NCBI RefSeq assembly: GCF_001298465.1 | Contig: NZ_CP012541.1 | Span: forward strand, 1,674,001 to 1,738,000 | DNA length: 64,000 bases | Origin: Campylobacter concisus | GTDB taxonomy: Bacteria; Campylobacterota; Campylobacteria; Campylobacterales; Campylobacteraceae | Direction of reading: 5' to 3' | Shown here: positions 49,128-53,289 of the stretch, one piece after another | Position numbering within the stretch: the first letter of the stretch is position 1 | Layout: each line of letters opens with the position of its first letter | Notes under the pieces: generated by a model | What the model saw: only the letters and a program-made list of their open reading frames with translations | Database searches by the model: none | Told to the model about the DNA's origin: nothing | Program-made: the position numbers and the translations under genes

Positions 49128-50045
49128 TTAATCTATTAGAAGCGATTTTATATCTACTTTTTGTTCAATCATCTTGCTCTCAAGCATAAATTCTTGCGTA
49201 GCTTCAAGTGCTTTTATATCTTCAGCCGTAATCTTTGGACTAAAGTCATACTGCGGATACATGCTCTTTACCGCCTCTATGCTAAGCCCGGTCTCTTCAG
49301 CCGTAAATTTTAATGCCTCTTCCTCATTTGCTTTCATAAAAGCCAAAATTTCATCTTGGGCTTTTTTAAATTTTTCAACTAGATCTTTATGCTTTTTGTA
49401 AAATTCTCCACTTGTGGCAGTAACGATGACTGGAGTGATGACGCCCTTGCCTGTTGTTACGACACTAAGTCCTGATTTTTTAGCATTATAAGCAGTTGGT
49501 CCAGCAAGAAGTGCTGCATCGACACTACCATTTTCAAGTGCAGCTTGTGCAGCTGGGATGCCCATAGAAACGAACTCTACGTCATTTATGCCAAGTCCAC
49601 CAAGAGCAAGATACCTAACCAAAAGCTCATTTAATATCGTACCTTTTGGCCCTACTATTTTTTTACCTTTTAAGTCTTTAGCGGTTTTTATGCCTTTATC
49701 TTTAGCAAATATCGCAAAAGCTTCAGGTGCTCTTGAATAGGCACTTATGATCTTTATGTCAGCTTTATTTGCCGCGGCAAGTATGACTGAAGTTCCGCCA
49801 ACACAATTTAAAAACTGAAGTGAGTTTGAAGCGAGCGCTTGCGTTTGTTTCGCACCTGAGGTGATCTCGGAGTACTCGACTGGCATGCCAAAAGATTTAG
49901 CATAAAAACCTTTAAATTTATCGACGATCGATGGGACGTTTAGCGGCGATTTGACGTAGGTCATACCGATCTTATCTAGCTCACTTGCGTTTGCGACTAG
50001 ACAAAATAAAGAGGCTGCACACAAAATCTTAAAAAACTTTCTCAT
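49128..50045 (-). CDS. ABC transporter substrate-binding protein, NitT/TauT family
   Basis: The 305-residue precursor has a signal peptide (cleaved near ANA, residue 20) and an NMT1/SsuA-type fold: LKGKKIVGPKGTILNELLVRYL and NGSVDAALLAGPTAYNAKK. Ligands in the family are sulfonates, taurine, nitrate, bicarbonate or pyrimidine precursors; which one applies is not visible. It is the last gene of a four-gene operon, 76 nt after the ATPase gene. Confidence 0.88.
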   Translation of the reverse strand: MRKFFKILCAASLFCLVANASELDKIGMTYVKSPLNVPSIVDKFKGFYAKSFGMPVEYSEITSGAKQTQALASNSLQFLNCVGGTSVILAAANKADIKIISAYSRAPEAFAIFAKDKGIKTAKDLKGKKIVGPKGTILNELLVRYLALGGLGINDVEFVSMGIPAAQAALENGSVDAALLAGPTAYNAKKSGLSVVTTGKGVITPVIVTATSGEFYKKHKDLVEKFKKAQDEILAFMKANEEEALKFTAEETGLSIEAVKSMYPQYDFSPKITAEDIKALEATQEFMLESKMIEQKVDIKSLLID

Positions 50046-50121
50046 ATTTGCTCCTTTAAAAATTTTTCAAATTATATAACTTTTTGCTTCATTTTGGTTT
50101 TAATTATCATTTTATAAAACG

Positions 50122-50814
50122 CTAAATTTCACTCAAAATTTTACGCTTTAAATTTATTAGTTCATCGCAAAGCAAATCTCTTAGCTTAGCTAGATTTGAT
50201 AGATCATAGCTTGATTTCATCCCACCTTTTTCAAGCAAAATGATCTCATCTGCTAAATATAGGGCCTCATCGACATTATGAGTGACAAAAATGATGGTTT
50301 TGCCGGCTTGGAGCTTTAAAATTTCAGCCTGCATGCTGGCCCTCGTAAAAGCATCAAGCGCTGCAAATGGCTCATCCATAAGGATCAAATTTGCTTCGTA
50401 TGCAAGCACTCTTGCAAGAGAAACGCGCGAGCTCATGCCACCAGATAGCTGCGAAACAGCGGCAAATTTAAACTCACTAAGCCCTATCATTGATATGAGC
50501 CTATCTATCTTTGCCTCGTCTATCTCGCACTTTTTAAGTGGAAAGACTATATTTTCATAGACATTTAAAAAAGGCATAAGCCTAGGCTCTTGAAATACAA
50601 AACCGATCTTTGCTTGCTCTTTAAATTTTATCTCGCCTAGACTTACGCCCTCAAGTCCTGCAATAAGCCTTAAAAGCGTAGTTTTACCGCATCCACTTCT
50701 GCCAAGTATAACAGTGATCTTATCTTTTTTTATACTTAAATTTAGCTCTTTTAAAACATCGATGCGCTTGTCATTAATAAAAAAATGCTTGGATAAATTT
50801 AAAATTTCTATCAT
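50122..50814 (-). CDS. ABC transporter ATPase, NitT/TauT family
   Basis: The 230-residue ATPase has Walker A GRSGCGKTT (37-45), Q-loop VFQEPRLMPF, signature QLSGGMSSRVSLARVL, Walker B LILMDEPFAALD and H-loop VTHNVDEAL. It powers the adjacent permease. It overlaps the permease gene by 4 nt. Confidence 0.92.
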   Translation of the reverse strand: MIEILNLSKHFFINDKRIDVLKELNLSIKKDKITVILGRSGCGKTTLLRLIAGLEGVSLGEIKFKEQAKIGFVFQEPRLMPFLNVYENIVFPLKKCEIDEAKIDRLISMIGLSEFKFAAVSQLSGGMSSRVSLARVLAYEANLILMDEPFAALDAFTRASMQAEILKLQAGKTIIFVTHNVDEALYLADEIILLEKGGMKSSYDLSNLAKLRDLLCDELINLKRKILSEI

Positions 50815-51560
50815 TTTTCACTTCGCAAAAGGCTAAATTTAGATATCAAAAATAAAAATATCCTATCTATGAGTACGCCGCAAATTCCTATCGTAAAAAT
50901 GCCAACAAATATCCTATCTGCACGCGAAAGCTCCTCCGCATCTAGTATGAGATAGCCTAGCCCGCTAGAAGCTGCGATCATCTCCGCTCCCACAATCGCT
51001 CGCATAGCGTAGCCAAAACCTATGCGCATACCTACAAAGATATCCTTTATGGCATTTTTTAGGATGATTTTGTAAAAAATTTCAAATTTACTAAAACAAA
51101 AAATTTTACCAACTTCAATAAGCTTCACATCGCAGCTAGTTAGCCCTTTTTGGATACTTAAAAACATTGGAAAAAATGATGCTAGGATGATAATAATAAT
51201 TTTTGGTGTTTCGTTTATACCAAACCAAAGTACTAAAATAGCAATAAGGCTAAGTGGCGGAACATTTCTAAAAAACTCTAGTATCCACTCATAATAAATA
51301 CTAGCTTTTGGAAATAGCGCCGCCACTCCGCCAAAAGCAAATGCCAAAACAAAAGCCAAAATATAGCCAACAAATATACGCTTAAAACTAACCATCACAT
51401 GCGTTATTAGCTCACCGCTTAAGCTCATATCAAGCATCGTTTTAAGTGTCGTAATAGGACTTGGCAAGATATAAGGTGTGAAAATTTCTAGCTCGCAAAC
51501 GACCTGCCAGAGGGCAAAGATCGCTAGGATCAAAACGCTCTTTTTAAAAATTTCTATCAC
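50811..51560 (-). CDS. ABC transporter permease, NitT/TauT family
   Basis: The 249-residue protein has six predicted helices and the BPD_transp_1 EAA-like loop (EVGKIFCFSKFEIFYKIILKNAIKDIFVGMRIG in parts, about 150-182), close to SsuC/TauC. It overlaps the genes on both sides by 4 nt, so the four proteins are made in concert. Confidence 0.91.
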   Translation of the reverse strand: MIEIFKKSVLILAIFALWQVVCELEIFTPYILPSPITTLKTMLDMSLSGELITHVMVSFKRIFVGYILAFVLAFAFGGVAALFPKASIYYEWILEFFRNVPPLSLIAILVLWFGINETPKIIIIILASFFPMFLSIQKGLTSCDVKLIEVGKIFCFSKFEIFYKIILKNAIKDIFVGMRIGFGYAMRAIVGAEMIAASSGLGYLILDAEELSRADRIFVGIFTIGICGVLIDRIFLFLISKFSLLRSEK

Positions 51561-52165
51561 AGCCCATCTCCATTGTGACAGCCATTTTCACAGTATAAAA
51601 GCTCGATGATCTGATAGTTTTTAAGTTCACTAAATTTATAGGAAAATGCGTTTTGTATCTTTTCTTTGCTACATAAGCTTAGTGTTTTTATGCCTAAATT
51701 TTCAAAAAATCCAGGTGGGATCGGACTTGATTCTATTTTGTTTATTTGTAAATTTATATCGTTTAGCTCTTTAAAATTTTTCCATGTTAAAAATGTAGTT
51801 CGCTCTAGCTTTAAAGAATTTCCAAGCTCAGCCAAGTCCTCACAAGGCGTTGTTATATAAAGCCACTCATCTTCTTTTAGCTTTGAGCTAAGCTCAATGG
51901 CACTTTCTATTAAAATGGGATTTAAGCTTGAAATATTGTTTGAAAAATCTTTGAAATTTGATCTTATAAAATTTACAGCTCTTGGACAGCGACTATCTAA
52001 GACCATGCCTTTAGAGCATAAATTTTTATATGAATTTTTGACATCACAAACATGATCTTTTTCGCACTCCACTATGTTAAAGCCCTTGTTTTGCAAGAGC
52101 TCTTTTAACGCAGAGAAGTCATACATATTTTTTACAACGGGATTTAGCCAAAGTAGCTTTCTCAC
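51557..52165 (-). CDS. FeFe-hydrogenase-like cluster-binding protein, first gene of the ABC operon
   Basis: The 202-residue protein has no signal peptide. Four of its cysteines fall where the FeFe-hydrogenase large-subunit C-terminal domain has cluster ligands: Cys60 in LDSRCPRAVNFI (compare TSCCPxW), NPILIESAI following, Cys108 in ITTPCEDLAE (compare MPCxxKxxE), and Cys192/Cys196 in LLYCENGCHNGDG at the extreme C-terminus (compare MACxxGCxxGGG). The Lys and Glu that support catalysis are absent, and the domain is much shortened. I infer a [4Fe-4S] protein without hydrogenase activity; role with the transporter is unknown. It overlaps the permease gene by 4 nt. Confidence 0.72.
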   Translation of the reverse strand: MRKLLWLNPVVKNMYDFSALKELLQNKGFNIVECEKDHVCDVKNSYKNLCSKGMVLDSRCPRAVNFIRSNFKDFSNNISSLNPILIESAIELSSKLKEDEWLYITTPCEDLAELGNSLKLERTTFLTWKNFKELNDINLQINKIESSPIPPGFFENLGIKTLSLCSKEKIQNAFSYKFSELKNYQIIELLYCENGCHNGDGL

Positions 52166-52287
52166 GAGTTCTCCGTAATTTTAATAATAGAAATCAAGAT
52201 TCTATCATTTAAAAATTTAAACCAAGTAAAAAGAGCCGCTTATGACTAAAATCATAAAGATAAGCAGTGCAAAAAACTAAATTTAGC

Positions 52288-53289
52288 CTACACTTTTATG
52301 TCTAATTTCTGTTTTTGCTCCACTTTTTCCATTAGCTTTAGTATATCAACTCCGTTTTTCTCAAGCTGCATTAGCTCCTTAAGATAGGCAAATTTCTCAT
52401 CTTTGTTGATGTCGTAAGTAGCCAGTTTCTCGCTTCGTCCGATCACTGAAGCATAGACTTTGTTGCCATCAAGTTTGTCTGTATTTTGCACATTATAAAG
52501 CGAGAGCACGCCCTCTACCACCTCTTTAAAATCCACCCCACTCTTCATGCCAGCTTTCATGAGCGTAAGAAATCTCTGTCTACTCTCTTCGTCAGTGAAA
52601 TTTATATTTTGTAGCGTCTGGTACTCGATTGGTGGCTTATTAGTGCTTGTTAGCATTGAGATAGCCTTTTTGCCTATCGTAATGCTCTCCACGCCGACTC
52701 TTTCGCCAAGATACTGCCTAAGCGCATAATCAATCCACTTATCTTTAAACTCGTCTATGTTTAGGTCCTTATCAAGTATCTCAAACCCCTCCACGTGGCT
52801 CTTGTGACCAAGTCCAAGAAGTGTGTTATCAAGTTTTGATGTATACTCTTTTGCAAAGAGATCGACATCTGTTGGATAATATCCTATGATCTCTTCGTGA
52901 GCTCTGCCAAAGCCAAGTGCTTTGGTCTGGTTGATAAAATTTTTGAGATCATTTATCTCATCTTTGCTGATTTGTTTGTCATATCCCATGAGCTTGCCCC
53001 AGATGCTTATCTTGCCATTAGCAGCTATGCCTGATAGCGAGAAATTGCTAGCAAATGTTAGATTCTCGCTATTTTTTTGAAATTTTATCGTATTTGTTTC
53101 ATTTAATTTTATTAAGTCAGCTCTAGTATCAGTATGACTTTTTCGTTCATCAACCAAACTACTAGATAAATCATTTAAAGAATTTTTGTCTATATTGGGT
53201 TTAGAGTTATTGGTATCAAGCCCTTGTGCTCTACTACTTTGTGAGCCAACATAAAAATTTGTGCCAACTCCATTTACACTACCTATCAT
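52288..53289 (-). CDS. Hypothetical protein
   Basis: This 333-residue protein is not recognised. The first 90 residues are Ser/Asn-rich and probably disordered, with no cleavable signal. The rest is helical and acidic, with EEIIGYYPTDVDLFAKEYTSKL in parts and a C-terminal DINKDEKFAYLKELMQLEKNGVDIL region resembling a calcium-binding-like loop (DINKDEKFAYL), though a lone one. Cysteine is absent, as in many exported or flagellar-exported Campylobacter proteins, but secretion is only a guess. It is monocistronic. Confidence 0.68.
   Translation of the reverse strand: MIGSVNGVGTNFYVGSQSSRAQGLDTNNSKPNIDKNSLNDLSSSLVDERKSHTDTRADLIKLNETNTIKFQKNSENLTFASNFSLSGIAANGKISIWGKLMGYDKQISKDEINDLKNFINQTKALGFGRAHEEIIGYYPTDVDLFAKEYTSKLDNTLLGLGHKSHVEGFEILDKDLNIDEFKDKWIDYALRQYLGERVGVESITIGKKAISMLTSTNKPPIEYQTLQNINFTDEESRQRFLTLMKAGMKSGVDFKEVVEGVLSLYNVQNTDKLDGNKVYASVIGRSEKLATYDINKDEKFAYLKELMQLEKNGVDILKLMEKVEQKQKLDIKV

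Follow-up and report, generated by a model that had tools for sequence, protein, structure and literature searches.

A putative iron-sulfur protein related to the [FeFe]-hydrogenase H-domain heads an ABC importer operon in Campylobacterota and Bacillota

An ABC importer operon in a 1.84-Mb genome, with Campylobacter concisus and C. showae as its named relatives, was found to be headed by a protein, FES, which on the evidence of profile comparison and structure modelling descends from the catalytic H-domain of [FeFe]-hydrogenases and keeps its core fold. The best explanation for FES, put forward tentatively, is a one-cluster cytosolic protein that acts on, or responds to, an imported organic anion.

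The operon and its first gene

The window, i.e., the whole 64,000-nucleotide stretch of DNA that was analysed (G000:C1:1674001-1738000), carries the genes for FES, the permease, the ATPase, and the binding protein head to tail in that order (Table 1). The open reading frames between 49128 and 52165 were as an earlier note on this sequence had described them, all on the minus strand, and the 4-nt overlap that it reported between FES and the permease gene was confirmed as GTGA. The permease and ATPase genes likewise overlap by 4 nt, and a gap of 76 nt separates the ATPase gene from that of the binding protein. At other loci the FES/permease junction ranged from -31 to +46 nt (overlap or near-contact), with L083 excluded because its mechanically assigned permease start is doubtful. 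The start codon of FES is GTG. A 333-aa gene with no significant family match lies between rplQ and the FES operon (window positions 52288-53289); C. concisus-like genomes have it at this place, and in C. showae-like relatives none was seen next to FES.

Table 1. Features of the FES-importer operon, in window positions.
Feature	Position	Strand	Evidence
GGAG, probable FES ribosome-binding site (Shine-Dalgarno-like)	52171-52174	-	sequence just 5' of the GTG start
FES, putatively derived from the [FeFe]-hydrogenase H-domain, 202 aa	51557-52165	-	Pfam, profile-profile alignment, AlphaFold2 model, dN/dS
FES stop/permease start overlap, 4 nt	51557-51560	-	sequence
ABC permease, NitT/TauT (SsuC/TauC-like) type	50811-51560	-	BPD_transp_1, 3.9e-23; best NCBIfam matches SsuC/TauC, below equivalog cut-offs
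ABC transporter ATP-binding protein	50122-50814	-	ABC_tran, 3.2e-29
Periplasmic substrate-binding protein, NMT1/SsuA-like	49128-50045	-	NMT1, 7.5e-21; SsuA_fam; predicted fold nearest SsuA/TauA

The two tests that the earlier note had named as able to refute its reading, a profile search against the iron hydrogenase domain and a structure prediction, both led to that domain, and the reading stood. FES matched Pfam Fe_hyd_lg_C (PF02906) at 26.8 bits, above the cut-off of 22.1, and its orthologues scored 24.6-45.9 bits, the top value (45.9) belonging to the clostridial L084 and the others lying at 24.6-30.2. Two other clostridial FES proteins (L034 and L082) had no Fe_hyd_lg_C match as single sequences and matched via the profile only, so that the single-sequence verdict depends on the FES member chosen. 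Profile-profile alignment (hhalign) of 17 FES homologues from two phyla with 14 H-domain proteins gave an E-value of 9.7e-9 and a probability of 95.7, and the FES profile in turn recovered true hydrogenase-domain proteins in clostridial genomes weakly. The hydrogenase domain covers 192 of the 226 FES family columns in this alignment; the previous claim that most of the domain had been lost was thus overstated, and what is missing is mainly one segment, GGV-EA-LR. The AlphaFold2 model (pLDDT 89.5, pTM 0.85) has the H-domain fold, and all of its best 50 listed PDB matches are [FeFe]-hydrogenases, with TM-scores of 0.58-0.69 normalised to the query. A leucine-rich-repeat identity for FES was rejected, the matches from a direct PDB sequence search and a Pfam LRR_ComC match both being spurious. 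Elsewhere, at L085 (5959-6714), a stand-alone protein of 251 aa matches the full length of Fe_hyd_lg_C at 128.7 bits; it has no ferredoxin domains, and no importer lies close to it.

Of the cysteines, just Cys60, Cys108, Cys192, and Cys196 are invariant in the 17 homologues; they sit opposite the ligands of the H-cluster cubane, as had been read from the sequence before, whereas Cys34 varies. Also invariant in this alignment, and specific to the FES family, are an SPxPxGxF motif, W128, and R59. The dN/dS of FES is ∼0.11; the gene is under purifying selection and is maintained. By homology, FES probably carries one [4Fe-4S] cluster. The cluster might instead have been lost in practice, leaving FES with a structural or binding role and with cysteines that hold zinc or nothing, given that a C-x3-C pair with two distant cysteines can bind other metals; this is quite improbable, however, as the cysteines kept across two phyla are exactly the four of the cubane and a hydrogenase fold is predicted.

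The cubane ligands and the fold are shared with hydrogenases, as they would be if FES were a minimal but genuine [FeFe]-hydrogenase whose H-cluster is complete, but the residues of the 2Fe-subcluster site speak against this. The Lys at position +3 of the PC motif (PCxxK) is invariant in the hydrogenase set and is replaced in FES, by Leu in nearly all members; the residue preceding the first ligand Cys is Arg in FES and mostly Cys or Ser in hydrogenases; and the GGV-EA-LR segment, which lines the 2Fe site, is deleted. The loss of this Lys had been pointed out earlier under the label of a proton-path residue, which is not strictly right, since it is the conserved Lys near the 2Fe subcluster. Furthermore, neither HydF nor any PF02906 hydrogenase was found in whole-genome scans of five FES-bearing genomes that are ≥99% complete (G000, G013, G145, G166, and G185), and G000, judged by the absence of HydF, lacks H-cluster maturation. 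The PF02906 scan, at an E-value of 0.001, omits FES itself in G000, FES being too divergent for it; the absence of hydrogenases was accepted because true ones in other genomes of that scan reach far higher scores. One further Campylobacter genome (G041) keeps an intact FES operon, whereas its [FeFe]-hydrogenase and its HydF have both decayed to broken remnants (G041:C1, near 1679065-1679297; L096 and L107), so the fates of FES and of the hydrogenase are separate. What the evidence opposes for the window's organism is a complete H-cluster, not a [4Fe-4S] cluster, and the minimal hydrogenase, by now scarcely credible, is largely refuted already.

Distribution and inheritance

FES was found in 32 of the 48 Campylobacter-genus genomes. 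The binding protein is intact in 31 of the 48, all of them FES-bearing and with a constant distance from FES to the binding protein. In the 32nd FES genome (G038), a rearrangement has truncated the permease that follows FES at residue 81. In three FES-less relatives (L128, L129, and L130), all that is left of the binding protein is a C-terminal remnant of ∼70-100 residues, in some cases with stop codons, at the original operon site between rplQ and a NifU-like gene; these three have lost the operon in one piece. A second genus of the family has the complete operon in three genomes, at another genomic place. Among the sampled Bacillota, FES occurred in eleven genomes, with the importer adjacent in ten (complete operons at L034, L078, L079, L081-L084, L151, L152, and L154); in the eleventh (G483, L080), FES is followed by an FAD/Rieske oxidoreductase gene and its C-terminus extends beyond the usual end of the family, which looks like a truncated operon. 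Thus, FES stood without a transporter alongside in two cases only (G038 and G483), both apparently rearrangements. The earlier note had asked whether homologues always lie next to the same importer, and this held in nearly every case examined in Campylobacterota and Bacillota.

The reverse does not hold, as a binding-protein search recovered transporter orthologues without FES at eight loci (L149, L150, L153, and L155-L159). A search of these genomes for FES found none at seven of the eight, the exception being G1283, which has a second copy of the transporter with FES. In a tree of the three transporter proteins, the FES-bearing loci did not form one clade (p-AU 4.2e-6), and FES presence changed at least four times on supported branches; the FES tree and the transporter tree recovered the same groups. 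Transporter residues tracking the presence of FES amounted to a few weak columns, none convincing. Most simply, FES and the transporter became associated long ago, and FES was then lost repeatedly while the transporter was retained; whole-operon horizontal moves between phyla are likely as well. FES depends on the transporter, not the transporter on FES; as the transporter survives without it, FES is an accessory rather than part of the pore or the ATPase, and it is best read as dispensable for transport itself. That FES is functionally coupled with the importer is considered very likely.

The importer and the proposed role of FES

The binding protein scored 162.0 bits against the TIGR01728 (SsuA_fam) cut-off of 163.5, a narrow miss, and its predicted fold is that of SsuA/TauA, with 3ksx, 2x26, and 6ssy as the best matches (E ∼1e-22). 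The solved relatives nearest to the importer are sulfonate binders, and the ligands in the closest structures are MOPS, MES, or 2-aminoethylphosphonate. A riboswitch that might have revealed the substrate was found at none of the FES loci scanned. From these similarities, and with low confidence, the imported compound may be a small organic anion, perhaps a sulfonate.

In the preferred explanation, FES would be an H-domain pared down to its [4Fe-4S] cubane-binding portion, with neither the 2Fe-subcluster site nor the N-terminal ferredoxin clusters remaining. Co-translated and co-inherited with an SsuA/TauA-like importer of a small organic anion, it would use its single cluster in the cytosol once the compound has been imported. 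Next to the cluster, the emptied pocket, taken as lined by the SPxPxGxF motif, R59, and W128, would accommodate the imported compound or a product of it, for FES to reduce, cleave, or sense. The analysis shows the ancestry, the predicted fold, the conservation of the cysteines and of the operon, the co-inheritance, and the independence of FES from H-cluster maturation; the cluster, the ligand, and the reaction are the parts of this explanation that we infer, and that FES acts on the imported compound or its product may be so, but is offered with reserve. Three observations count against it: the transporter works without FES in many genomes, where use of the imported compound evidently does not require FES; hardly any transporter residue tracks the presence of FES; and FES has no partner reductase gene alongside it in Campylobacter.

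FES could alternatively be a sensor of redox state, O2, or iron that regulates the importer, through contact with the ATPase or permease or through expression of its own operon. Its place as the first gene, translationally coupled to the permease, would suit such a sensor, as would a lone cluster without a catalytic partner; the loss of FES from loci that keep the transporter fits an optional regulator, and H-domain relatives in groups C and D are proposed sensors (PMC13104023; PMC8163306). However, Pfam recognised no DNA-binding, PAS, or kinase domain in FES, no riboswitch or other known RNA element was found at the FES loci scanned, and the near-absence of tracking residues in the transporter weighs against a sensor as well, so that sensing of this kind seems rather unlikely.

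The neighbourhoods of the importer at other loci contain several genes of note. At L082 (2143-9143), genes for HydF, HydE, FES, the permease, the ATPase, the binding protein, a 183-aa protein, and a CobW-type GTPase follow one another on one strand; the 183-aa protein has no Pfam match, and a relative of it lies downstream of the L084 operon (926-1459). At L158 (2807-9192), an FES-less importer is flanked by hydF and hydE, the latter occupying the usual place of FES, and an aspartase-like gene, named from its N-terminal sequence only, adjoins hydF; aspA near hyd genes has been described (PMC11736057). Genes for the hybrid cluster protein (Hcp) occur near the importer at L083 (9600-11528), L154 (5006-6292; this copy matches from profile position 125 onward only), and L159 (3546-5192). 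Of the outgroup importers, that at L160 is beside NifH/NifDK-like (nitrogenase-like) genes, and that at L161 beside BadF/HGD-D double-cubane-type (reductase-like) genes. The transport family therefore adjoins unusual Fe-S enzymes in several lineages; these neighbours, being few cases, are leads toward redox Fe-S chemistry, not proof. In two lineages distant from each other, a gene for an NSS family sodium-dependent transporter precedes the FES operon (L075, 3589-4953; L081, 7337-8734).

A more speculative version of the preferred explanation, and a distinctly long shot, has the imported ligand dock onto the vacated 2Fe site, which would create a new Fe-S catalytic or sensing centre needing no HydEFG. 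If so, an older connection of this transport family with special-cluster chemistry would explain why the importer adjoins HydE and HydF in two lineages of clostridia.

Comparison with known systems

Among transport systems, the sulfonate and taurine importers SsuABC and TauABC belong to the same transporter family and share the predicted fold of the binding protein, whereas the FES operon misses their NCBIfam cut-offs, is headed by FES, and has no sulfonate monooxygenase within it. The SaoABPX importer (NCBIfam) is among the better matches for the permease and the ATPase, but their scores fall far under its cut-offs. The pairing of an FES-type protein with a NitT/TauT-type importer, which the earlier note had not known to be described, was likewise not found described in the open-access papers searched.

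The [FeFe]-hydrogenase H-domain (PF02906; CpI, HydA1, DdHydAB) has the same fold as predicted for FES and the same order and context of cubane cysteines. Unlike these hydrogenases, FES is only 202 aa long and lacks the ferredoxin domains, the Lys of the PC motif, and the 2Fe-lining segment; it has Arg before its first ligand Cys, and its host has no HydF.

The main known example of a hydrogenase-like protein without a 2Fe site is Nar1, which is essential in eukaryotes and has a disputed function. FES constitutes a bacterial family that has a single cubane site and is linked to a defined importer through both its operon and common descent; it would be a much simpler system in which to study the role of an H-domain after hydrogen chemistry, with the imported ligand as a concrete handle. 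Nar1 (CIAO3/IOP1) is hydrogenase-like and keeps the [4Fe-4S]H site without [2Fe]H or maturases, and it has an additional N-terminal cluster site (PMC12621388). By analogy, FES might be a Nar1-like Fe-S carrier or scaffold, and the importer might bring in a compound tied to cluster assembly or repair. Nar1 offers the precedent of an H-domain that has kept its cubane without a 2Fe site (PMC12621388), and the importer does lie near genes for unusual clusters (HydE-HydF at L082, hydF/hydE at L158, and Hcp no more than a few kb away at L083, L154, and L159). Nevertheless, HydE/HydF neighbours occur at just 2 of ∼20 loci, unrelated genes separate Hcp from the importer at L083, the five Campylobacter hosts tested have no HydF, and the second, N-terminal cluster site of Nar1 is missing from FES, which makes a carrier unlikely. 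Membership of FES in Nar1/CIAO3 was rejected, the region of the N-terminal four-Cys site being absent in the alignment. Membership in the H-domain superfamily holds, while hydrogenase function and Nar1 membership do not: FES resembles Nar1 in its retained [4Fe-4S]H site and missing [2Fe]H, but Nar1 belongs to the eukaryotic CIA pathway, whereas FES is bacterial, single-domain, and tied to an importer.
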